Positions 1 through 8,857 of a DNA stretch of 8,857 nt are shown in pieces. The notes under the pieces were generated by a model. The model made no database searches, was not told the DNA's origin, and was given only the letters and a program-made list of their open reading frames with translations. Source of the stretch: Magnetococcales bacterium. Its GTDB lineage: Bacteria > Pseudomonadota > Magnetococcia > Magnetococcales > DC0425bin3. The stretch is from positions 1-8,857 of the forward strand of contig JADGCJ010000133.1 of assembly GCA_015229045.1 (NCBI GenBank), written 5' to 3'. Within the stretch, counting starts at the first letter, position 1. Each line of letters opens with the position of its first letter. The position numbers and the translations under genes are program-made.

Positions 1-50
1 AGAACATTTCCTTTTTTTGATATTTAAAAGATAACATATTGAAAGTCAAA
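1..50 (-). repeat. Solo/truncated copy of the dispersed element end, cut by the window edge
   Basis: This stretch matches the right arm of the palindromic element at 5310-5761: the shared block AGAACATTTCCTTTTTTTGA is followed by a diverged TTAAA..AACATATTGAA and a degenerate outer end (AGTCAAA against CGGCAAC). The outer end points right, so any remaining element lies to the left, outside the window. There are a few substitutions and one indel against the 5310-5761 arms, so this is an older or separately inserted copy. Confidence 0.8.
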
Positions 51-62
51 AGATTGTGGCAT

Positions 63-92
63 AAAAAAACCCGGATCTTCGCAGATCCGGGT
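63..92 (-). terminator. Rho-independent terminator (leftward)
   Basis: Read on the minus strand, a perfect 10-bp stem ACCCGGATCT / AGATCCGGGT (69-78 with 83-92) closes a 4-nt loop and is followed at once by a run of seven T. It is the only strong terminator to the left of the cyclase gene. It could end both that mRNA, which shows no closer terminator, and the proposed small RNA. Confidence 0.9.
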
Positions 93-239
93 GGTGTCGT
101 CTCCCTCTGGGGGAGCTGGACGGGTTCCGAAGGGGACAAATGCATTCGTCGCAGTGGGCTTCCAGAGCTCGTTCGTTTAGTGTCGATTGAGTAGATCAGT
201 TTCTTGGAGCCTGCAACCAGAGCACCGTTCCTCGGTTTG
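63..239 (-). ncRNA. Candidate sigma-54-dependent structured small RNA, about 177 nt
   Basis: No convincing ORF fills this stretch. On the minus strand a sigma-54 promoter (250-266) predicts a start near 239, and an intrinsic terminator ends the transcript near 63. In between are compact hairpins: ACCG-AGGAA-CGGT at 236-224, only a few nt from the predicted 5' end; GACGAA-TGCA-TTTGTC at 150-135; and CTCCC-CCAGA-GGGAG at 115-101. Several GGA triplets occur, one in the loop of the first hairpin, as in CsrA/RsmA-sequestering RNAs. I do not recognise a named family. The length fits 6S RNA, but the 5' hairpin leaves no 5'/3' closing stem. It could instead be a structured 3' UTR of the cyclase mRNA. 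Confidence 0.5.
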
Positions 240-249
240 TTTATTATGT

Positions 250-266
250 AGCAAGTGCCGGGCCAA
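250..266 (-). promoter_or_regulatory. Sigma-54 (RpoN) -24/-12 promoter
   Basis: The minus strand reads TTGGCCCGGCACTTGCT. Against the RpoN consensus YTGGCACGNNNNTTGCW it differs only at one A, and the GG-N10-GC spacing is exact. It points left into a non-coding stretch that ends in a terminator. Sigma-54 promoters require an enhancer-binding activator, whose site would probably lie within the 3' part of the cyclase gene; I could not identify it. A small inverted repeat CAATA/TATTG (264-279) overlaps the upstream edge. Confidence 0.6.
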
Positions 267-363
267 TAATTGAATATTGATTTATCCCATTGTTATCATT
301 ACAGAAACATTTTCTGCCGCGCGGTGTGTCAACCAGCCTTCGGCAAAAAGTGCCAACAAAGCC

Positions 364-2454
364 TCAATCCGTTGACGCTCCGCCACGCAGGTAGACGCCA
401 ATTTTCTGATCTTCCCGGGCGATGTGGTTGACCAGCCAGTCGAAAAGCAGCGACTGCAGGCGGAACAGCAGATAGGCTTCCCGATGATCCGATCCGGCCA
501 TTTCGTCCCGGAGACGCTGGAAGTCGACGGTGAAGGCGCGATGTTTGGCGCGATGCAGAGCCATGGCGGGATAGCCCCATTTCTCCATCAACGTCTCTTC
601 TTCACTGAAATGGTTGAGGGTGTAATCCATCAGGAAGGTCATGGATTCGAGCAGAACCTCCCGGGTATGACGGGAATGGAGAGCTGCTTCCACCCGAGCG
701 GCCATCTCCATGATCTGACGATGCTGGGTATCGATGCTTTCCACCCCGACGGCCAGTTCCGGGGTCCAGACCATGGCCCGACCGGCGGATCCCCCGTTGG
801 GAAGACGCCCTTCCTTGAGATGGGTGGCGATGCGTTCCAGATAGATCTTGGCCACCGGATCCCGTCCGCCATGGGTTTGGCAGGTCAGGAAGAGGTCGTG
901 GGCCGCGGTCAGTTCGCCGAGATGGAAGAGGGCCACCGCCTCCTCGAACTGGGTGCGGGTGATCTGTTTCTCGTGCCGGAGGGAGTCGACATCGGTATCG
1001 AAGACTTCGTAAACCAGCACCGGCATCTGCCGTCCCCGTGGTCGGAGATAGTCGATCAGGCGCATGGAGAAGCGTTCCGGATGCTGCAGGTGGAAACGGG
1101 TTTCGTGGGTGATCAGCAGGCGTGTTTCGTACTGATTGGTCAGGCCTTCCATGCGGGAGGCGATGTTGACCACGTCGCCGATCACGGTGTTTTCCATGCG
1201 TTCCCGACCGCCGATGGTACCCAGCATCACCCGGCCGGTATTGAGACCGATGCCCATGCGCAAGGGCAGTTTCTGGTAGTGGATGCGTTCCAGATTGTAT
1301 CGGTCCACCTCCTGGCACATGGCCAGGGCCGCCTGGACCGCTTCATCGGGCGAGGCGGGGAAGAGGGCCATGATGGCGTCCCCGATGAACTTGTCGATGA
1401 CGCCGCCGTGTTGTTGAATCGGCGGTTCCATGCGTTTCAGGTAGCCGTTGATGAAGAGAAAGACCTCGTGAGGGGTCATCACCTCGCAAAGGGAGGTGAA
1501 GCCGCGGATATCGGAGAAGAGGACCGTCATCGAGGCTTCGATGCTGTCGCCGAGGGCCACGCCGGTGATGTCCGGCTTGCCAAGCAGTTCGATGAAGCGG
1601 TGGGGCACGAAACGGTCGGCGGCGTTGTGCAGGGCTTGCAGACGCTCCTGGGCCTCCTTGCGGGCGGTGATGTCGATGACCACGCCGGTGAAGAGCCGAC
1701 CCTGGGGCAGGGGCACCTCGCTGACCGAGAGTTCGATGGGAAAGAGGGTGCCGTCCTTGCGTTTGCCCAACAGCTCCCGGCCGTTGCCCAGGATGCGCTT
1801 CACCCCGGTTTCCCGATAGCGGTCCAGGTAGCCGTCGTGGTTTTCGGCATCGGGGGAGGGCATCAACAGGTTGACGTTTTTGCCGTAAACCTCTTGTGCG
1901 CCATAGCCGAACATCTTTTCCGCCGCCAGATTGAAGGATTCGATCAATCCGGCTTCGTTGATGACGATGATGCCGTGAACGGCGGTTTCCAGAATGGAGC
2001 GGATGCGGGCTTCGCTCTGCATCAGCTTCTGTTGTTTGGCCATCACCTTTCCGGTGTTGGATTTCATCCAGGTGATCAAGGTTTTCAGCAGGTTGACGGC
2101 GGCGGTGCCGTCAAGGCGCATCAGGGACCAGAGATCCTCCTCGGTGATTTCCAGCACCCGTGAAGGTTCCACCACGACGACGAAGGCCGAGGGGCGGGAG
2201 CGTTCCAGCAGGGAGCTTTCGCCGACGGCGCCGCCGGGTTCGATGTAGCGTTCGGGGGGCTCGCGGCGGTCGAAATGGATGGCGAGGCGTCCGGAGAGCA
2301 GAACGAACAGGCGATGATTGTCGTGGTCCGGTGAGAGAAGCACCTGGCCACCGGCAAGTTCGGTGACGCGCGAACCCCGTAATCCCTTGCGGATCACTTT
2401 GAGATTCATCCCGCGAAACAATTCAACCTGTTCCAGTTCCTTATGACTGACCAT
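364..2454 (-). CDS. cNMP-binding / FixL-like PAS / class III adenylate cyclase / bacteriohemerythrin fusion, 696 aa
   Basis: Predicted soluble signalling enzyme making cAMP from ATP. Domains: cyclic-nucleotide-binding-like 1-130; PAS 148-265; class III cyclase about 285-485; short helical TPR-like stretch 495-545; hemerythrin 561-691. The PAS resembles FixL: H206, R212 and R226 match the heme ligand His200, Arg206 and Arg220 of Bradyrhizobium FixL, suggesting an O2-binding heme. Cyclase residues are complete: metal Asp D315 (FSDIRGFT) and D359, adenine-selecting K355, and N430/R434 of VVNIASR. Hemerythrin diiron ligands H578, H615, E619, H634, H638, H677 and D682 are all present. There are no membrane segments or signal peptide. 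The cNMP phosphate-binding cassette (GESSLLERSRPSA, 78-90) has R-P where P-R is usual, so nucleotide binding is uncertain. The ATG is set by a strong Shine-Dalgarno sequence. Divergent from the MBL/cNMP/hemerythrin gene. Confidence 0.93.
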   Translation of the reverse strand: MVSHKELEQVELFRGMNLKVIRKGLRGSRVTELAGGQVLLSPDHDNHRLFVLLSGRLAIHFDRREPPERYIEPGGAVGESSLLERSRPSAFVVVVEPSRVLEITEEDLWSLMRLDGTAAVNLLKTLITWMKSNTGKVMAKQQKLMQSEARIRSILETAVHGIIVINEAGLIESFNLAAEKMFGYGAQEVYGKNVNLLMPSPDAENHDGYLDRYRETGVKRILGNGRELLGKRKDGTLFPIELSVSEVPLPQGRLFTGVVIDITARKEAQERLQALHNAADRFVPHRFIELLGKPDITGVALGDSIEASMTVLFSDIRGFTSLCEVMTPHEVFLFINGYLKRMEPPIQQHGGVIDKFIGDAIMALFPASPDEAVQAALAMCQEVDRYNLERIHYQKLPLRMGIGLNTGRVMLGTIGGRERMENTVIGDVVNIASRMEGLTNQYETRLLITHETRFHLQHPERFSMRLIDYLRPRGRQMPVLVYEVFDTDVDSLRHEKQITRTQFEEAVALFHLGELTAAHDLFLTCQTHGGRDPVAKIYLERIATHLKEGRLPNGGSAGRAMVWTPELAVGVESIDTQHRQIMEMAARVEAALHSRHTREVLLESMTFLMDYTLNHFSEEETLMEKWGYPAMALHRAKHRAFTVDFQRLRDEMAGSDHREAYLLFRLQSLLFDWLVNHIAREDQKIGVYLRGGASTD

Positions 2455-2461
2455 GGCAGCC

Positions 2462-2469
2462 CACCTCCT
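2462..2469 (-). promoter_or_regulatory. Ribosome binding site of the cyclase gene
   Basis: The minus strand reads AGGAGGTG seven bases before the ATG at 2454. This near-perfect Shine-Dalgarno sequence fixes the start codon and suggests efficient translation, in contrast with the weak site of the divergent gene. Confidence 0.85.
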
Positions 2470-2489
2470 GGGGCAAGGTTACCCTCTTC

Positions 2490-2520
2490 CGCAACAATAG
2501 GCAACCTGGGCTCTGTTGCG
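2490..2520. repeat. Inverted repeat in the divergent promoter region, possible operator
   Basis: CGCAACA (2490-2496) and TGTTGCG (2514-2520) form 7-bp inverted arms separated by 17 bp, with a third GCAAC at 2501-2505. It lies 36 bp upstream of the cyclase start codon. A weak leftward sigma-70-like pair, TTGCCT and TAACCT with 17-bp spacing, overlaps it on the minus strand. It could be an operator or chance; no known regulator box was recognised. Confidence 0.3.
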
Positions 2521-2546
2521 CGGCAAAACGGGTGGGATTGGTAACG

Positions 2547-2576
2547 ACGGGGGTCCGGGGCTCCCCGGTCCCCCGT
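2547..2576. repeat. Strong GC-rich hairpin between the divergent genes
   Basis: ACGGGGG-T-CCGGGG (2547-2560) pairs with CCCCGG-T-CCCCCGT (2563-2576) around a 2-nt centre: 13 base pairs with one internal T:T mismatch. No T-run follows on the plus side, so it is not a classical terminator. It lies in the 2455-2696 gap and would sit in the 5' leader of whichever transcript starts beyond it, or act as a barrier between the two promoters. Confidence 0.6.
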
Positions 2577-2696
2577 ATTTACAAGCGATTGCCCGGCACC
2601 GAAACCGGTATTGTATCCCGACGGCAATTGCGGCACAGTATATCGACTGGAAAATAGATAAAGTTCCACTTCCAAAGAACGACGCGGGTGGATGGC

Positions 2697-5306
2697 ATGG
2701 AGAAACTCCATAAAATTGCGGTATCCCAAGGCATCTACTGGGTGGAGGCCCCGTTGGCCGATCTGCGCATTTTGTGCGGATGTCCCGCCGACAGCGTCAA
2801 GCATCTGATCAAGCGGGGTCTCATCCTGCAGAAGGAGAAGCAGGGGGTGCCGTGCGAAAGCGGGCCCAACGCCATTCTGCTCTCCGACACCATGTTGCAG
2901 AACGGGGATTTCGCCAATTTGAGTGAGTTTCCCGTGCTGCAGATGCTCTACAAACAGGGCATGATTCTGCCGGGGCATCCCAACAATACCGGGGCCAAGC
3001 CGCTGCTCATCGGGTTGCCGCAGCAGGTCAACGCCCAGTTGCAATACATCTATCGCGGCAATTACGGGCTGGTTTCCCTGGAGGAGCTGATGCAGGCCGG
3101 GCTCTCCCGGGAGGCGGCGCAGGAGCAGATGCGTCTCAAGCTGCGTTTTGCCTTCGGGCGCATTCGTCCCTCCCAGGAGCTGCTCGACACCTGTCTGGTG
3201 GAGCAGACGGAGGTGGAAATCCGCAACGGTCTTTTCATCCGGCGCACCGCCACCAACCACTACGTCTTCCGCTTTCAGGAGGAGGAGGTGGCGGTGGATC
3301 TCAATCTCTCCCCGCGGGAGCAGTACGAAACCCCCTATCCGCTGGTGCATCAGCGTCTGGTGCGGGACTACTTCTCTATTATTCACTCCGGGGAGGGGGA
3401 TGGTTGGGATGTCAATCGTCCCACCATGTCAAGCATTCTGGTTTTTCAAGGCCGCATCTTCCTGGTGGATGCGGGTCCCAATCTGGCGCAGAATCTCACG
3501 GCGTTGGGGGTGGGGCTTGATGAAGTGGAGGGCATTTTCCACACCCATGCCCATGATGACCACTTTGCCGGCATCACCACTCTCATGCAGGCGGGTCATC
3601 GCATCCGTTATTTCGCCACGCCGCTGGTGCGGGCTTCGACGGAGAAGAAGATTGCCGCGCTCCTTTCCATGGAGGAGGAGCGTTTTCGGGATTTCTTCGA
3701 CATTTGTGATTTGACCTTCGATGTGTGGAATGACATCGAAGGGGTGGAGGTCAAGCCTATCTTCTCGCCTCATCCGGTGGAGACCTCCATCTTTCTGTTT
3801 CGCACCCTGTGGGCCAATGGTTACAAGACCTATGCCCATTTTGCCGATATCGTTCCGTTGGATTTGTTGCGGGGCATGATCACGGCGGACACTTCTGTTC
3901 CGGGGGTGAGTCGGGAGTTTTACAATCGGGTGGAGGAGGCCTATCTGACGCCCGCCGATTTGAAGAAGATCGACATTGGCGGGGGGTTGATTCACGGGCA
4001 GGCCAAGGATTTCCGGCAGGATGCCTCGGGCAAGATATTGTTGGCGCATGTGGCGCGGCCGTTGACTTCCGAGGAGAAGGAGATCGGCTCTTCGGCGCCG
4101 TATGGCACCTCCGACATTCTCATCGTGGGCAAGTCCGATTTCACGCGCCGTGGGGCTTTCGAGCATTTGCGCATCTATTTTCCGGACATGCCGGTGCATC
4201 AGGTGCGCATTCTGCTCAACAACGATCTGGAGGAGTTCAATCCGGGCAGCATCATTTTGCGGGAGGGCACTCGGGCGGGCAATGTGTTGTTGATTCTGGG
4301 TGGGGTGGTGGAGCGCATCATCTCCCGGGACAATGTGCAGAGTCGGCTGTCGGCGGGGGCGTTGATCGGGGAGAAGTCGTGTCTGCATCATCAAATCTCG
4401 CCGGCCACCTATCGGGCGGCCAGTTATGTGCAGGTGTTGCGGATTCCCGGCAGGCTTTATCTGGAGTTGGTTCGGCTGAATGGTTTGTTGCCCAAGATCG
4501 AGGCGTTATGGGAGAAGTGGTCCTTTTTCCAGACCACGACGCTGTTTGGGGAGGGGGTTTCCTATCCGGTACTCAGTCAGATATTGGATCGGGCGCGGGT
4601 CAAGCGGTTTCGTCCGGGGGAGCGCATCACCTGTCAGGATCTGACCAGTCTCAATCTGGTGCGCAGCGGGCGGTTGCGGCGTTTGGTGGGCAGTGAGTTT
4701 CTGGATATGCTGGAACGCGGGGCCTATTTCGGGGAGGAGGGGGCGTTATTCAGTCTGCCGTGTCTGTTCCGGCTGGAGGTGGAGGAGGAGACGGAGGTTT
4801 ATCAGGTGGATGGGGAGTTGCTGAAGGACATTCCCGTCATTCGCTGGAAGTTGTTCGAGTCGTATACGCGGCGCACCTTGCAGATTGTGCATGCCGGCAA
4901 TGATCGGGAGGTGTTGCGTTGGCGGGAGGAGTTCAGTGTGCATGTCTTGCGCATGGACACGCAGCACAAGACCTTGGTGGAGATTGCCAACGGCATTATC
5001 GAGATGCAGCGGGCGGGGGAGATGCCGCCTTTGGAGCGGGCCTTTCAGGCGTTGATGGATTATACCCGGTATCATTTCGCGGAAGAGGAGGCGTTGATGG
5101 CGCTTTATGGATATCCGGGGTTGGCGGTGCATCGGGAGCATCATCGGCGGTTGGTGGAGAGGGTGGTGGGCTATTGGGCGGTCTTGAAGGGTGGGGGAGT
5201 GGCCAAGGAGGATTTCCGCAGCTTCTTTACGGATTGGTTGGTTCATCATATTTTAGAAGAGGACCGGCAGTATGCGGCGTTCTTGAACAATAAATGTATT
5301 TATTAA
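2697..5306 (+). CDS. MBL-fold hydrolase / double cNMP-binding / bacteriohemerythrin protein, 869 aa; possible cyclic-nucleotide phosphodiesterase
   Basis: Soluble multidomain protein. Residues 1-235 form an N-terminal region I cannot assign. At 240-470 is a metallo-beta-lactamase fold: D258, the metal motif THAHDDH with H284, H286, D288 and H289, then H359, D384 and H433, a complete dinuclear site like those of RNase Z and class II cAMP phosphodiesterases. Two cNMP-binding-like domains follow, about 497-605 (cassette GALIGEK, 554-560) and 612-732 (cassette near 675-690). Both lack the usual Arg-Thr/Ser-Ala signature, so ligand binding is unproven. Hemerythrin at 740-865 has all ligands: H757, H793, E797, H812, H816, H851, D856. 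Substrate is unknown; cAMP is inferred from the cNMP domains and the divergent cyclase. I chose ATG 2697 over in-frame GTG 2688 because GGGTGG lies five bases before it; both sites are weak. The coding strand becomes strongly G-rich towards the 3' end. Confidence 0.88.
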   Translation: MEKLHKIAVSQGIYWVEAPLADLRILCGCPADSVKHLIKRGLILQKEKQGVPCESGPNAILLSDTMLQNGDFANLSEFPVLQMLYKQGMILPGHPNNTGAKPLLIGLPQQVNAQLQYIYRGNYGLVSLEELMQAGLSREAAQEQMRLKLRFAFGRIRPSQELLDTCLVEQTEVEIRNGLFIRRTATNHYVFRFQEEEVAVDLNLSPREQYETPYPLVHQRLVRDYFSIIHSGEGDGWDVNRPTMSSILVFQGRIFLVDAGPNLAQNLTALGVGLDEVEGIFHTHAHDDHFAGITTLMQAGHRIRYFATPLVRASTEKKIAALLSMEEERFRDFFDICDLTFDVWNDIEGVEVKPIFSPHPVETSIFLFRTLWANGYKTYAHFADIVPLDLLRGMITADTSVPGVSREFYNRVEEAYLTPADLKKIDIGGGLIHGQAKDFRQDASGKILLAHVARPLTSEEKEIGSSAPYGTSDILIVGKSDFTRRGAFEHLRIYFPDMPVHQVRILLNNDLEEFNPGSIILREGTRAGNVLLILGGVVERIISRDNVQSRLSAGALIGEKSCLHHQISPATYRAASYVQVLRIPGRLYLELVRLNGLLPKIEALWEKWSFFQTTTLFGEGVSYPVLSQILDRARVKRFRPGERITCQDLTSLNLVRSGRLRRLVGSEFLDMLERGAYFGEEGALFSLPCLFRLEVEEETEVYQVDGELLKDIPVIRWKLFESYTRRTLQIVHAGNDREVLRWREEFSVHVLRMDTQHKTLVEIANGIIEMQRAGEMPPLERAFQALMDYTRYHFAEEEALMALYGYPGLAVHREHHRRLVERVVGYWAVLKGGGVAKEDFRSFFTDWLVHHILEEDRQYAAFLNNKCIY

Positions 5307-5309
5307 GCA

Positions 5310-5761
5310 GTTGCCGTTCAATATGTTGCCTTTAAGTATCAAAAAAAGGAAATGTTCTGTCCTTTGACGTGGCCTTGGCCTTTGGCGGGTCGAAGCCAAA
5401 AGGAGAAGTGCCCAACTCCGCACCGTCTTCCAAACCCTGTCCCATCTTCGACCCGCCGGAGGGGGCAAGGGGAGGGCTTCATCCTCCCCATCCTTTTGGG
5501 ACGTGGCCATTCCGCCGCGATTTGAGTTTGATCCGAAAGTTTTGCTTGGAACAGGCTATGGCTTATTATGGGTGGTGAGTTCAAGGAGGGGGAGGGTGAG
5601 TCCCTCCCCTTGCCCCCTCCGGCGGGTCGAAGTGTTCACCAAGGTCGTGCGGGGAATCGGGTTGCTGCGCTTTCCTTTTGGCTTCGACCCGCTCAAGGCC
5701 ACGTCAACGGACAGAACATTTCCTTTTTTTGATACTTAAAGGAAACATATTGAACGGCAAC
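5310..5761. mobile_element. 452-bp palindromic, MITE-like non-coding element between convergent genes
   Basis: The outer 68 bp (5310-5377 and 5694-5761) are inverted copies with two mismatches, both starting GTTGCCGTTCAATATGTT and containing TATCAAAAAAAGGAAATG. An inner 31-bp pair (5446-5476 and 5602-5632) is perfectly inverted. The stretches between diverge, and the centre 5477-5601 is not palindromic. It encodes no credible protein: the short ORFs inside are proline/arginine-rich products of the GC-rich arms. With one further mismatch the symmetry continues through both neighbouring stop codons, so each gene runs straight into the same sequence. No clear target-site duplication is visible. 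Transcribed from either side it would fold into a large hairpin, so it may work as a bidirectional terminator. Single copies of its end occur at 1-50 and 7701-7762. The family is not one I can name. Confidence 0.75.
5384..5457. repeat. Hairpin nested in the left arm of the element
   Basis: GGCGGGTCGAAG (5384-5395) and CTTCGACCCGCC (5446-5457) are perfect 12-bp inverted arms. The right arm of the element has its own pair, at 5621-5632 and 5682-5692. The same 12-mer thus occurs four times in alternating orientation, and each arm can fold alone as well as with the other arm. Confidence 0.75.
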
Positions 5762-5764
5762 GGC

Positions 5765-7468
5765 TCATTCCTCTTCGGGTCTGCCGGAAATCCTGGCCCA
5801 GGAGTCCTTCAAGGCCACCGTGCGATTGAACACCGGCATCTCCGGGGTTGAATCGGCATCCAGCACGAAATACCCCTCCCGTTCGAACTGATACGAAACC
5901 CCCCGCCTGGCCCCACCCAAACTCTCCTCCAGGCGGGCATTTTCCAACACCTGCAACGAATCGGCGTTGAGCCGGGCGGTGAAATCCTGCCCCGCCGCCA
6001 AACCCGCACCCGGATCGGCATGGGTGAACAGCCGGTCATACAGACGAACCGTCGCCGCATGGGAACGTGAGGCCGATACCCAGTGAATCACGCCCCGCAC
6101 CTTGCGTCCTTCGGGATTGGCCGACAAGGTGTGCGGATCATAGGTGCAACGCAACTCCACGATCTCCTTGGTCACCGGATCCTTGACCACCTTTTCGCAG
6201 CGAATCACATAGGCATTGCGCAGCCGAACCTCTCCACCCGGCAACAGCCGCTTGAACTGCTTGGGAGCCTCTTCGCGGAAGTCGTTGCGATCGATGTAGA
6301 TCTCGCGGGTGAAGGGCAGGGTGCGCTGACCCATTTCCGGCTTTTGGGGATGAATCGGGGCCTGAATCTCCTCCACGCCTTTTTTGGGGAAGTTCTCCAG
6401 CACGATCTTCAAGGGACGCAAGACCGCCATGGCCCGAGGCGCCCGCACTTCCAGGTCCTCGCGCAGGCAGCTTTCCAGCAGGGCCATCTCCACGGTTCCG
6501 GCGGATTTGGTGATGCCGATGCGTTGACAGAAGGTGCGAATGGCCTCCGGGGTGTAACCGCGACGACGCAAACCGGCGAGGGTCGGCATGCGCGGATCGT
6601 CCCAGCCGCTGACGTAGCCTTCGTTGACCAGGGTGTTGAGTTTGCGTTTGGAGAGGACGGTGTATTCCATCTCCAACCGGGAGAACTCGATCTGCCGGGG
6701 GCGGCAGGGCACGGAGACGTTGGCCAGGATCCAGTCGTAGAGGGGCCGGTGGTCTTCGAACTCCAGGGTGCAGAGGGAGTGGGTGACGCCTTCGAGGGCA
6801 TCGGAGATGGGGTGGGAATAGTCGTAAGTGGGATAGATGCACCAGCGATCCCCGGTCTGATGGTGGGTCAGCCGGCGAATGCGATAGAGGGCGGGATCCC
6901 GCATGTTGATGTTGGGGGAGGCCATATCGATGCGAGCGCGCAGCAGGCGGCTGCCGTCTTCGAACTCTCCGACGCGCATGCGACGGAAGAGGTCGAGGTT
7001 TTCTTCCACGGTGCGATCCCGGAAGGGGGAGGCTTGTCCCGGCTCGGTCAGGGTGCCGCGGGTGGCGCGAATCTGGTCGGCGTTGAGGTCGCAGACGTAG
7101 GCCAATCCTTTGACGATCAGCTCTTCGGCGTAGGTGTAGAGCTGTTCGAAGTAGTCGGAGGTGAAGCGCACGGGTCCGTGCCAGGCGAAGCCCAGCCAGG
7201 CGACGTCTTCCTGGATGGCGCGCACGTATTCCGGGTTTTCCTTGGCGGGGTTGGTGTCGTCGAAGCGCATGTTGCACCAGCTACCCGGGAACTCCTGGGC
7301 CACGCCGAAGTTGAGGCAGATCGATTTGGCGTGACCGATGTGGAGGTAGCCGTTGGGCTCGGGGGGGAAGCGGCTCACCACCCGGTGGTGTCGGCCTGCC
7401 AGCAGGTCGTCGCGAATGATGGAGCGGATGAAGTCGGGGGCGGTCCCAGGGGTTTTGGCGTCTTGCAT
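5765..7468 (-). CDS. glnS: Glutaminyl-tRNA synthetase (GlnRS), 567 aa
   Basis: Class I aminoacyl-tRNA synthetase that charges tRNA-Gln with glutamine using ATP in the cytoplasm. Residues 33-50 contain the class I signature [14 protein letters not shown] (HIGH at 43-46), followed by FDDTNP (69-74). The KMSKS-type loop is VLSKRKL (271-277), and [16 protein letters not shown] at 289-304 is typical of the Glu/Gln family. The C-terminal third is the two beta-barrel anticodon-binding region. Length is close to the 554 aa of E. coli GlnRS, so it is complete. I chose ATG 7468 over in-frame GTG 7474 because GGAAGG lies nine bases before the ATG but only three before the GTG. It is convergent with the MBL gene across the palindromic element. 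Many alphaproteobacteria lack GlnRS and use Glu-tRNA amidotransferase, so its presence helps taxonomic placement. Confidence 0.97.
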
Positions 7469-7477
7469 GACCACGCA

Positions 7478-7483
7478 CCTTCC
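7478..7483 (-). promoter_or_regulatory. Ribosome binding site of glnS
   Basis: GGAAGG on the minus strand, nine bases before ATG 7468. It decides the start in favour of ATG 7468 rather than GTG 7474. Confidence 0.65.
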
Positions 7484-7521
7484 ATGAAAGGCAGTTCGGG
7501 TTATCCGGGTTCGACGATGTC

Positions 7522-7550
7522 ATTGTAGCCGGATTTTCTCCGGTCTCGAA
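7522..7550 (-). promoter_or_regulatory. Probable glnS promoter, sigma-70 type
   Basis: On the minus strand TACAAT (7522-7527) matches the -10 box in five of six bases. A weak -35, TTCGAG (7545-7550), lies 17 bp upstream. The predicted start near 7515 gives a leader of about 47 nt. The spacer holds the inverted repeat CCGGA/TCCGG, which might bind a regulator or be chance. Confidence 0.45.
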
Positions 7551-7700
7551 GGTTTTGCATTGCAAAGATAGCGCCGGAATGCGGATTGACGGGATCGAAG
7601 CCTGGGGGAGGGGATCCTCTGCACCTTCGTCGGGGTTTTATTAAGACGAATTGACAGAAATGGCAAGTGGAATCCGTGACGATCCGGGATAAATGAACCC
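7551..7700. other. Intergenic stretch upstream of glnS
   Basis: I found no gene here. The only structure is a 6-bp inverted repeat TTCGTC/GACGAA (7626-7631 and 7645-7650) around a 13-nt loop. A second possible leftward promoter, TTGCCA with TAATAA at 17-bp spacing, overlaps it but is weak. Confidence 0.3.
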
Positions 7701-7762
7701 GTGGCCTTTCAATATTTATCTTTTAAGTATCAAAAAAAGAAAATGTTCTATCCTTTGACGTG
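7701..7762 (+). repeat. Solo copy of the element end
   Basis: This stretch aligns along its length with the left arm of the element at 5310-5371: GTGGCCTTTCAATAT at the outer end, then TTTAAGTATCAAAAAAAG and TCCTTTGACGTG. It carries several substitutions. After 7762 the sequence leaves the family and becomes AT-rich, and no opposing arm is visible to the right. It is either a solo terminal repeat or an element whose interior was replaced or lost. Confidence 0.8.
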
Positions 7763-7873
7763 TATTTATATTTTGACTATATCTAAATAATTAAAATCTA
7801 ATAATAATTCACAAATATAACTTAAAGTGAATATCTAGCAAAACAATTATTGTGAATAGGTTCGATATCACCG
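7763..7873. other. AT-rich non-coding patch with inverted repeat, between element end and hicB
   Basis: A strongly AT-rich 111 bp, unlike the GC-rich surroundings. ATTCACAA (7807-7814) is inverted as TTGTGAAT (7850-7857), with a further GTGAAT at 7827-7832. It lies just 3' of hicB and might end its transcript, but no hairpin plus T-run is present. The composition marks a junction between core and accessory sequence. Confidence 0.45.
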
Positions 7874-8284
7874 TTACGAGGCCTCGGCCATCATTTTACG
7901 CGCGGCTTCGGCCAAATACCCGGATCGGGTCATATGTCTGGTCATGGCTTGTTTGTCCACTCGGTCGAGCAGATTTTTCGGCATGGTGATGTTTACCCGC
8001 ACGGCTTGATGGGACTCCCGGATGTCTTCCACCTCGACCACGGCCCATATCCAGCCGGCAAAATCCGGGTTGCTCATATGGACTTCGATTGGTTGGGTTT
8101 TTGGAAAGTCCATGCCTTCCGCGATCATTCCTTCCATGTGGAGCAGGATTGCCTCTTTGGCATGGGTCATGACCTCGTCCAGGGTATCCGCAGCGGAGAA
8201 GCAGCCCGGCAGATCCGGAACCACCACACCGAAGGCATGGGTTTCGTCTCCTGGTTCGATGGCGATTGGGAAGGTGATTTTCAT
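7874..8284 (-). CDS. hicB: HicB-family antitoxin, 136 aa
   Basis: Type II antitoxin expected to bind and neutralise the HicA toxin and to repress its own operon. The N-terminal half is the partly degraded RNase-H-like HicB fold (FGVVVPDLPGCFSAADTLDE, then a helix with AKEAILLHMEGM). The C-terminal half is a ribbon-helix-helix DNA-binding domain starting near residue 95 (VRVNITMPKNLLDRVD, then MTRSGYLAEAARKMM). Start: ATG 8284 overlaps the TGA of hicA as ATGA, so the genes are probably translationally coupled; AGGCGGG lies a few bases upstream. The frame stays open further upstream, but that extension runs through hicA in another frame and is not homologous. Its length is usual for RHH-type HicB. 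Confidence 0.93.
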   Translation of the reverse strand: MKITFPIAIEPGDETHAFGVVVPDLPGCFSAADTLDEVMTHAKEAILLHMEGMIAEGMDFPKTQPIEVHMSNPDFAGWIWAVVEVEDIRESHQAVRVNITMPKNLLDRVDKQAMTRHMTRSGYLAEAARKMMAEAS

Positions 8285-8463
8285 TTCAGTCCCGCCTGTT
8301 TGAGGATGGAATTCAGCGTTCCGATTTTGATATGCCCTTTTGGATGAGCCACCGTCACCAGACCTGCCTTGATTGGATGCTTGAATGGGTGATGGCTGCC
8401 GGCCACCCTGACGAGTTGCCATCCATCTTTCTGAAGTGTCTTGATGAGGTCTGTGGTGTTCAT
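8281..8463 (-). CDS. hicA: HicA-family mRNA interferase toxin, 60 aa
   Basis: Small type II toxin with a double-stranded-RNA-binding-like fold that cleaves mRNA when free of HicB. The sequence shows the whole family pattern: a helix with DLIKTLQKDGWQLVR, then GSHHPFKHP with the catalytic His of the GSHH motif (residues 23-26), then GLVTVAHPKGHIKIGTLNSI and LKQAGLK at the C-terminus. Length is normal for HicA. It is the first gene of the pair, and its stop overlaps the hicB start by four bases. No Shine-Dalgarno sequence is visible before its ATG, and a TATAAT lies only eight bases upstream, so a leaderless transcript is possible. The pair appears intact and probably functional. Confidence 0.94.
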   Translation of the reverse strand: MNTTDLIKTLQKDGWQLVRVAGSHHPFKHPIKAGLVTVAHPKGHIKIGTLNSILKQAGLK

Positions 8464-8471
8464 GGACTGTC

Positions 8472-8477
8472 ATTATA
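8472..8477 (-). promoter_or_regulatory. Possible -10 box of hicAB
   Basis: The minus strand reads TATAAT, a perfect -10 hexamer, with no good -35 at 16-18 bp. Transcription from it would start about two bases before the hicA ATG. ACTG/CAGT arms (8466-8469 and 8483-8486) flank it symmetrically and could be part of an autoregulatory operator. Confidence 0.4.
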
Positions 8478-8498
8478 CGCATCAGTACACACAGAGGC

Positions 8499-8550
8499 GG
8501 GAATAAAATAGGATTTCCGCTTCGCCGTCCGCTATTTATTCCCCCTTTTT
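8499..8550. terminator. Long inverted repeat followed by a T-run, possible rightward terminator
   Basis: GGGAATAAAATAG (8499-8511) and CTATTTATTCCC (8532-8543) pair over 12 bp with one bulged A, around a 20-nt loop. On the plus strand TTTTT follows at 8546-8550, giving a terminator shape. No plus-strand gene is seen nearby to use it. The right arm contains the stop codon of the ribbon-helix-helix remnant. Confidence 0.4.
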
Positions 8551-8688
8551 CCCCCTCCTGACCTCTCCCCCCTCCCGTCTTCCCAGCCCTTCGGCGATCA
8601 GGGCCACCACCAGCGTATTCAGACTGACCCCTTCCGCTTTGGCTCTGCCCGACTGATGGGCATGCAGGGTCTTGGGAACTCTGGCCAC
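8536..8688 (-). pseudogene. Truncated ribbon-helix-helix antitoxin (HicB/CopG-like C-terminal half)
   Basis: The minus-strand frame encodes VARVPKTLHAHQ, then RAKAEGVSLNTLVVALIAEGL and a charged tail, 50 residues from a GTG at 8688. The pattern (short beta strand, amphipathic helix, GVSLN turn, second helix) is the C-terminal ribbon-helix-helix domain common in HicB-type antitoxins and CopG/Arc proteins. The N-terminal part is missing: five codons upstream the frame enters the first CRISPR repeat, where it meets TGA and TAG. No start codon with a good ribosome site is visible. Interpretation: the 5' part of an antitoxin gene was lost at the CRISPR junction. A short functional RHH protein starting at the GTG is less likely. 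Confidence 0.55.
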
Positions 8689-8692
8689 GAAT

Positions 8693-8857
8693 GTTTCAAT
8701 CCCCTATCAAGCGGGGCGATGACTTAAAGACGCAAGGAAAAAATCATGAACATCGATTCCCAAAATCTGAAAAGTTTCAATCCCCTATCGAGCGGGGCGA
8801 TGACTTCAGGCCTATATGCCACGTCCGTACCACTCCCAAAAACTTGCTGTGTCTCAA
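8693..8857 (-). CRISPR. CRISPR array, trailing end, continuing past the window
   Basis: Two 33-bp repeats (8693-8725 and 8774-8806) differ at one base (CTATCAAGC against CTATCGAGC). They flank a unique 48-bp spacer, with a second spacer starting at 8807. On the minus strand each repeat ends GGGGATTGAAAC; an ATTGAAA(C/G) end is the usual 8-nt crRNA handle of many type I and III systems. That predicts leftward transcription, with the leader and cas genes to the right, so 8693-8725 would be the oldest, terminal repeat. CCCC and GGGG inside the repeat can pair. Only two full repeats are visible and no cas gene is in the window. Confidence 0.82.

Follow-up and report, generated by a model that had tools for sequence, protein, structure and literature searches.

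The window analysed here, 8,857 nucleotides from a Magnetococcales bacterium (assembly GCA_015229045.1, contig JADGCJ010000133.1, positions 1 to 8,857), contains two large divergent genes whose products both end in a hemerythrin domain. One encodes a metallo-β-lactamase (MBL) protein with two domains of the cyclic nucleoside monophosphate (cNMP)-binding fold, and the other encodes a class III adenylate cyclase with a FixL-like PAS domain. We found that the MBL protein belongs to a large and conserved family, which is the part of the locus most worth pursuing. From its sequence and its modelled fold, we infer that this family is most likely a sensor-gated phosphodiesterase of cyclic mononucleotides. 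Overall, we give an even chance to the interpretation that a modular, sensor-gated cyclic-mononucleotide hydrolase lies here beside an independent adenylate cyclase, and that the two do not form a conserved gene module. An earlier note on this DNA had proposed a tighter relationship, in which the two genes form an oxygen-gated circuit of opposed synthesis and breakdown of cyclic AMP (cAMP).

The MBL protein and its family

The MBL gene (2697..5306, plus strand) encodes 869 amino acids from the ATG at 2697. This is probably the start, because the deposited protein (P0001) has 869 amino acids; the ATG lies three codons inside the GTG at 2688, from which 872 amino acids had been counted earlier. 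The protein begins with an N-terminal domain (residues ~4–225, 2697..3362) that carries conserved CGCP, HPxN, and YRGNYG motifs. Next is the catalytic MBL domain (residues 228–480, 3369..4127), where the alignment places the metal motif HxHxDH within HTHAHDDH (residues 285–292, 3540..3563). It is followed by two cNMP-binding-like domains, cNBD1 and cNBD2 (residues ~515–595 and ~633–712, 4230..4823; the limits of the second are taken from the structure model), and by the hemerythrin domain (residues 743–867, 4914..5288). Matches to Lactamase_B family profiles fall within residues 248–325, and the hemerythrin domain scores 106.4 bits against NF033749 (cut-off 84). The earlier note had recognized the MBL, cNMP-like, and hemerythrin domains but had missed the N-terminal domain (~1–225).

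The putative active site is invariant across the family members that we aligned. We aligned 179 rows (the window protein, 59 loci, and 119 proteins; 170 distinct sequences, with 15 loci repeating a protein row), leaving out L054, for which the caller of open reading frames (ORFs) picked the opposite strand. The metal residues H287, H289, D291, H292, H362, D387, and H454 are identical in 179/179 rows, so that every row has the HxHxDH motif and the additional His, Asp, and His ligands of class II (MBL-fold) cNMP phosphodiesterases. The hemerythrin domain is conserved as well: each of its seven diiron ligands (five His, one Glu, and one Asp) is kept in 152–159 of the 159–160 rows that bear this domain. 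Thus, the intact MBL metal site and diiron residues that had been read from the single sequence hold up across the alignment.

We modelled the MBL core apart from the full protein for fold comparison, because a structure search with the full model gave only proteins with cNMP domains among the 50 matches listed. The nearest neighbours of the modelled MBL fold are Apyc1, YhfI, and nucleotide-bound MBLs, and it superposes on chains of the Apyc1/YhfI type at 2.7–2.8 Å over 213–220 residues. Apyc1 is the best match both by fold and by sequence profile. The Apyc1 family of Pfam (PF23023) matches 45/45 core sequences at E ≤ 0.05 (best E = 4.5e-6). As far as the model goes, the fold is nearest to that of characterised cNMP phosphodiesterases. 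The N-terminal and MBL domains together match the fold of long-form RNase Z (ELAC2) across residues 3–480 of the model. Long-form RNase Z has a degenerate MBL as its first half, and the N-terminal domain of our protein (1–225) models like such a degenerate half.

The cNMP-fold tandem of the MBL protein resembles that of the regulatory subunits of PKA and PKG, and the earlier note had suggested that the cNMP-like domains of both proteins provide feedback. We aligned the positions of the phosphate-cassette Arg by eye to the CRP pattern. None of the three cNMP-like domains in the window has the canonical phosphate-binding Arg. At position 572 in cNBD1, Arg is found in 71/179 rows, with Pro in the window protein; position 692 in cNBD2 is Cys in 69, Ser in 49, and Tyr in 27 of 179 rows (145 together). 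The cNMP-binding-like domain of the cyclase (residues 32–113, 2116..2361, minus strand) keeps the Gly-Glu and has Pro at the position of the Arg, which is also missing from its six full-length relatives. With this Arg missing from all three domains and variable across the MBL family, the domains are unlikely to serve simply for cAMP feedback, which weakens that part of the earlier proposal. By analogy to the trypanosome PKA subunits discussed below, the tandem could possibly bind another ligand.

Several observations weigh against parts of this interpretation. The window protein scores just 17.7 bits against PF23023, whose cut-off is 50, which places it outside the Apyc1 family proper. A profile-profile comparison of the N-terminal domain with the MBL domain gave a probability of 0.2, within the range of 30 column-shuffled controls (0.0–2.1), and the positive control, cNBD1 against cNBD2, gave 95.1. 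Because there is no such duplication signal at the sequence level, it is the modelled fold that suggests a degenerate MBL. Finally, although the usual phosphate anchor appears to be lost, Arg576 in cNBD1 is kept in 155/179 rows, so an unusual phosphate contact may exist in this domain.

The family is widespread. A search with the window MBL protein gave 3,330 proteins at E ≤ 1e-3, although in some the shared part may be no more than a hemerythrin or cNMP domain. The top 120 match over the full length, at 53–62% identity apart from the window's own record. With a divergent, hemerythrin-free member (L060) as the query, 3,118 proteins were found at E ≤ 1e-20. The family is present in 48/48 of the Magnetococcales genomes that we examined, with at least 129 copies (this is a lower bound, as up to 19 candidates were scored per genome). 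In 54 of the 129 copies, the match reaches residue 827 or beyond, that is, into or through the hemerythrin domain. We also located 60 loci of this family in GTDB genomes. Other carriers include Gallionella, Deltaproteobacteria, and Paramagnetospirillum, and the family is rare in the order of a Gallionella genome (5/300 sampled genomes).

The sensor domain varies between members. Some have no extra domain that we could find (L037, L038, and L042). Others begin with a receiver domain (L047 and, from precomputed domains, P0311, P0328, and P0353). In a third group (L048, L050, and L053), an N-terminal domain of the solute-binding family SBP_bac_3 is joined to the core through a hydrophobic stretch; these are candidates for transmembrane receptors with an MBL output. 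Swapped sensors on a fixed core are typical of signalling enzymes, and the MBL core appears to behave like an interchangeable signalling output.

The adenylate cyclase

The cyclase gene (364..2454, minus strand) encodes 696 amino acids, as indicated by its ORF, profile matches, and homologues. Domain limits were taken from Pfam and NCBIfam profiles (cNMP_binding, PAS, Guanylate_cyc, and hemerythrin), and these profiles bear out the four domains that had been named before. Besides the cNMP-like domain, there is a PAS domain at residues 142–277 (1624..2031), whose best NCBIfam match is FixL (E = 8.7e-41) and which aligns end to end with the FixL heme domain 1dp6 (E = 2.2e-31). His206 (codon 1837–1839) and Arg226 (codon 1777–1779) align with the heme His and the distal Arg of 1dp6; the 1y28 chain differs at the Arg. 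Presumably these two residues play the same parts at the heme as in FixL. With both the proximal His and the distal Arg in place, the domain is predicted from sequence to be a FixL-type PAS that binds heme and oxygen.

The catalytic domain (residues 308–467, 1054..1533) scores 71.9 bits against PF00211 (cut-off 21.9). Its class III motif is complete, as claimed before, with all six motif residues present: D315 and D359, which we take to be the metal-binding Asp pair; K355 and T423, the presumed base selectors; and N430 and R434, the presumed transition-state pair. The hemerythrin domain (residues 561–689, 388..774) scores 103.2 bits against NF033749 (again with a cut-off of 84) and has all seven diiron ligands.

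This combination of domains is uncommon. Of the 120 homologues listed, 89 align with the query in its cyclase and hemerythrin segments alone; just 5 align with all four segments, one of them being the window's own record. Across the 48 Magnetococcales genomes, 5 encode a relative covering all four regions. The heme His is missing from every one of the six full-length relatives (P0123/L114, P0124/L116, P0125/L115, P0126, L117, and L118), and each of them lacks at least one of the seven hemerythrin ligands at the aligned positions. P0127, which has no cNMP domain, retains the heme His and the hemerythrin ligands and has lost the Arg. Because each of these relatives is missing the heme His, the Arg, or the full ligand set, the fully equipped form is seen, among the full-length relatives and P0127, only in the window, whose cyclase is therefore an unusual variant. 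The combination of a heme-type PAS with a cyclase is not unique in itself. Of the listed homologues, 19 others align with the query in its PAS as well as its cyclase segment, and a search of whole, unaligned chains for a simple FixL-like His motif found it in 13 of these.

We also noticed that eight proteins of 932–1052 amino acids (P0129, P0131, P0133–P0136, P0139, and P0142) combine histidine kinase, receiver, PAS, and class III cyclase domains, according to precomputed domains, and show the FixL-like His motif. Separately, a search with the cyclase protein gave 36, 70, and 46 matches in three Magnetococcales genomes (G001, G002, and G003), chiefly to its PAS and hemerythrin domains. Domain-rich neighbours are therefore common by chance in these genomes.

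Genome context of the two genes

Both ORFs are confirmed as divergent and match deposited proteins from a 78,001-base contig of a Magnetococcales metagenome-assembled genome (P0001 for the MBL protein at 100% and P0121 for the cyclase at 99%). To ask how often a cyclase accompanies the MBL gene, we combined 60 loci from GTDB with 40 Magnetococcales regions, which gave 100 MBL loci, of which 87 are distinct. (For Magnetococcales, we took the 40 of the 129 copies that scored best, which include only a minority of the hemerythrin-free copies.) At least 1.5 kb of flanking DNA was available on both sides in 61 of the 87 loci, with less than 1.5 kb on at least one side in the other 26. In 3/87 of these other loci there is a class III cyclase no more than 7 kb away, as compared to 1.5–1.8 expected from the genome-wide density of cyclases in 13 genomes (P = 0.19–0.26). 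Thus, cyclases are found near MBL loci about as often as expected by chance. The three are a cyclase with an Fer2 domain (Fer2-AC) directly downstream of the MBL gene on the same strand (L001:12623-14413, plus strand), an AC-PilZ protein encoded two genes upstream (L010), and a CHASE2-AC protein encoded convergently (L035); none (0/3) has the architecture of the window cyclase. The L001 cyclase carries a 2Fe-2S ferredoxin domain and so is another redox-type cyclase that adjoins an MBL-cNMP-hemerythrin gene.

Similarly, five Magnetococcales genomes have a full-length relative of the cyclase, and in none of them (0/5) does it share a contig with an MBL copy, although two of the contigs that carry it are only ~7–8 kb, so that wider linkage is possible. 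When we clustered the neighbours in the 60 loci and the window, no family appeared in more than three loci except for the MBL cluster, which chained in multi-domain proteins. We therefore rejected a conserved divergent module of cyclase and phosphodiesterase; as far as seen, the divergent pair is a local arrangement. Recurrence of the pairing in other genomes was a check set beforehand, and these counts (3/87 loci and 0/5 genomes) come close to what the earlier note itself gave as grounds for abandoning the circuit, namely unrelated neighbours elsewhere.

The two genes are separated by 242 bases (2455..2696), which had been described as a shared promoter region. The divergent gap is there, but scans of 2440–2720 found no sigma-70-like or terminator-like site, and the gap contains no CRP-like or FNR-like match. 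Across the whole window, there were 17 CRP-like matches (24.4 expected) and 5 FNR-like matches (3.6 expected).

The MBL family and class III cyclases do occur together at the level of genomes. A class III cyclase is present in 87/87 of the genomes with the MBL family that we checked (48 Magnetococcales and 29, 7, and 3 others), as compared to 208/300 unselected genomes of one order. This co-occurrence is only suggestive of a common messenger, because the baseline is a single unmatched order and the comparison has no phylogenetic correction.

The rest of the window includes a glutaminyl/glutamyl-tRNA synthetase (5765-7474, minus strand) and, within 7874-8463 (minus strand), a HicB-like antitoxin (PF15919, E = 2e-47) with a probable start near 8284. 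An ORF of 60 amino acids (8281-8463, minus strand) directly precedes the HicB-like gene and looks HicA-like by eye, which would make a HicAB-like toxin-antitoxin pair. At the edge of the window, a 36-nucleotide repeat with a CRISPR-like look occurs in two copies (8690-8725 and 8771-8806; 94% identical, 81 bases from start to start). We also considered whether the locus is a defence system, as PADLOC matched the cyclase to PycC (E = 2e-28) and the MBL protein weakly to cNMP-domain models. We rejected this, and discounted the matches, because they are due to the common cyclase and cNMP domains; the other genes that we identified are the tRNA synthetase and the HicAB-like pair.

Proposed function and comparison with known systems

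We propose that the MBL protein consists of a degenerate MBL half, an active MBL domain of the Apyc1/YhfI type, a cNMP-fold tandem in which the usual anchor for phosphate has been lost, and a hemerythrin sensor at the C terminus. The MBL core would hydrolyse a cyclic mononucleotide (cAMP or cGMP), and the oxygen or redox state of the diiron site would set the rate, relayed through the tandem; the control may be in either direction. In homologues, the place of hemerythrin is taken by a receiver domain or by a solute-binding periplasmic receptor. The adenylate cyclase, with its heme PAS and hemerythrin domains, would be independent of the MBL protein, and both proteins may act on one cAMP pool in this organism. 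A bolder version, which we hold tentatively and rate below an even chance, is that these proteins are an undescribed class of receptor-type phosphodiesterase, with a pseudo-MBL/MBL core, a tandem tuned to a ligand that is not cAMP, and hemerythrin, receiver, or periplasmic sensors. In Magnetococcales and other bacteria of redox gradients, they would serve as a main "off" enzyme for cyclic mononucleotides, and would here lie opposite a cyclase with two types of oxygen sensor.

A dedicated, co-regulated circuit, with the cyclase as the source of cAMP, the MBL protein as its sink, and both gated by oxygen with cNMP feedback, now seems quite unlikely. The genes are divergent and close together, the oxygen-sensor residues are complete on both sides, the class III cyclase is equipped for oxygen or redox sensing, and the MBL fold is nearest to cNMP phosphodiesterases. 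The second-closest MBL protein in the 48 Magnetococcales genomes (L001, 61%) has the Fer2-AC gene next to it, and there are precedents for tuning the synthesis or breakdown of cyclic di-GMP (c-di-GMP) by oxygen or redox state (DgcO/PdeO, VcBhr-DGC, and Bhr-HD-GYP; PMC8846402). However, the cyclases near MBL genes are of other architectures and about as frequent as expected by chance, and in the genome with the closest MBL relative (G025, 62%) the full-length cyclase relative is on a different contig. The missing cassette Arg in the three cNMP-like domains also argues against the feedback. So, beyond adjacency, the claim of a circuit is unsupported.

Alternatively, the MBL core could act on another phosphodiester, such as RNA or tRNA (in the manner of long-form RNase Z), a cyclic or linear dinucleotide, or a metabolite of the PhnP/PqqB type, in which case oxygen or redox state would control RNA or metabolism. 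We consider this somewhat unlikely, as the best matches by fold and by profile are to Apyc1, and as fusions of the core and its cNMP-fold tandem to receiver, solute-binding and transmembrane, or hemerythrin domains would be more in keeping with a role in signalling than with that of a housekeeping RNase. It is highly improbable that the MBL domain is instead a non-enzymatic diiron oxygen sensor of the flavodiiron or ODP type, which would make the protein a double oxygen sensor. The protein does already contain one diiron domain, and MBL-fold diiron oxygen sensors are known, but all 179 rows have the hydrolase-type HxHxDH and not HxExDH, the flavodiiron motif. No flavodiiron chain was among the 50 structure matches listed for the core, where absence is no proof.

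To our knowledge, the removal of cAMP and cGMP in bacteria has been mapped far less than their synthesis. If the family is a sensor-gated MBL phosphodiesterase, it would allow oxygen, a phosphorelay, or nutrients to shut off a cyclic-nucleotide signal in Magnetococcales, Gallionella, Deltaproteobacteria, and Paramagnetospirillum. As there is a homologue (P0336) in Paramagnetospirillum magneticum, whose strain AMB-1 is a genetically tractable laboratory strain, this idea is directly testable.

In a literature search by title and the start of the abstract, neither the MBL-cNMP-hemerythrin family nor the architecture of the window cyclase was described. A prior mention is possible in French 2008, on prokaryotic hemerythrins, which is in the reference lists of PMC9388753 and PMC5088516. 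The partner domains listed in PMC2556348 are MCP, GGDEF, histidine kinase, CheY-like, and ~20 unidentified ones, and a domain graph for the signalling helix includes hemerythrin and NMP cyclase (PMC1592074).

The MBL protein shares the HxHxDH dimetal site and a superposable domain with the class II phosphodiesterases Apyc1 and YhfI, whose chains are ~240–250 residues; the extra degenerate MBL half, the two cNMP-fold domains, and the swappable sensor are fused to it here. Apyc1 is described as a homodimer with an HxHxDH dimetal site (PMC9117128). The modelled core of our protein matches long-form RNase Z over both halves of the fold, but it is fused to cNMP-fold and hemerythrin domains and has no duplication signal in its sequence. 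Its tandem is like that of trypanosome PKA regulatory subunits, whose cNMP folds lack the cAMP-anchoring Arg and bind nucleosides (PMC10959531). We rejected a nucleoside cassette of the trypanosome type, as the loss of the Arg is common to both but the second diagnostic Glu of that cassette, as given in the same source, is not at the equivalent position by eye; the likeness is only an analogy.

As for the cyclase, short AC-hemerythrin proteins (mostly 400–480 amino acids) likewise join a class III cyclase to a C-terminal hemerythrin domain, but do not match its cNMP-like and heme PAS domains. E. coli DgcO and PdeO (DosC and DosP) are also oxygen-sensing enzymes of synthesis and breakdown; they are a known functional pair that works on c-di-GMP with globin and heme-PAS sensors, whereas the pairing here is not conserved (PMC8846402). 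In Bhr-HD-GYP from Ferrovum and VcBhr-DGC, hemerythrin is likewise fused to an enzyme that breaks or makes a messenger. According to the same source, these use HD-GYP or diguanylate cyclase domains on c-di-GMP, whereas the proteins of the window join hemerythrin to class III cyclase and MBL folds.
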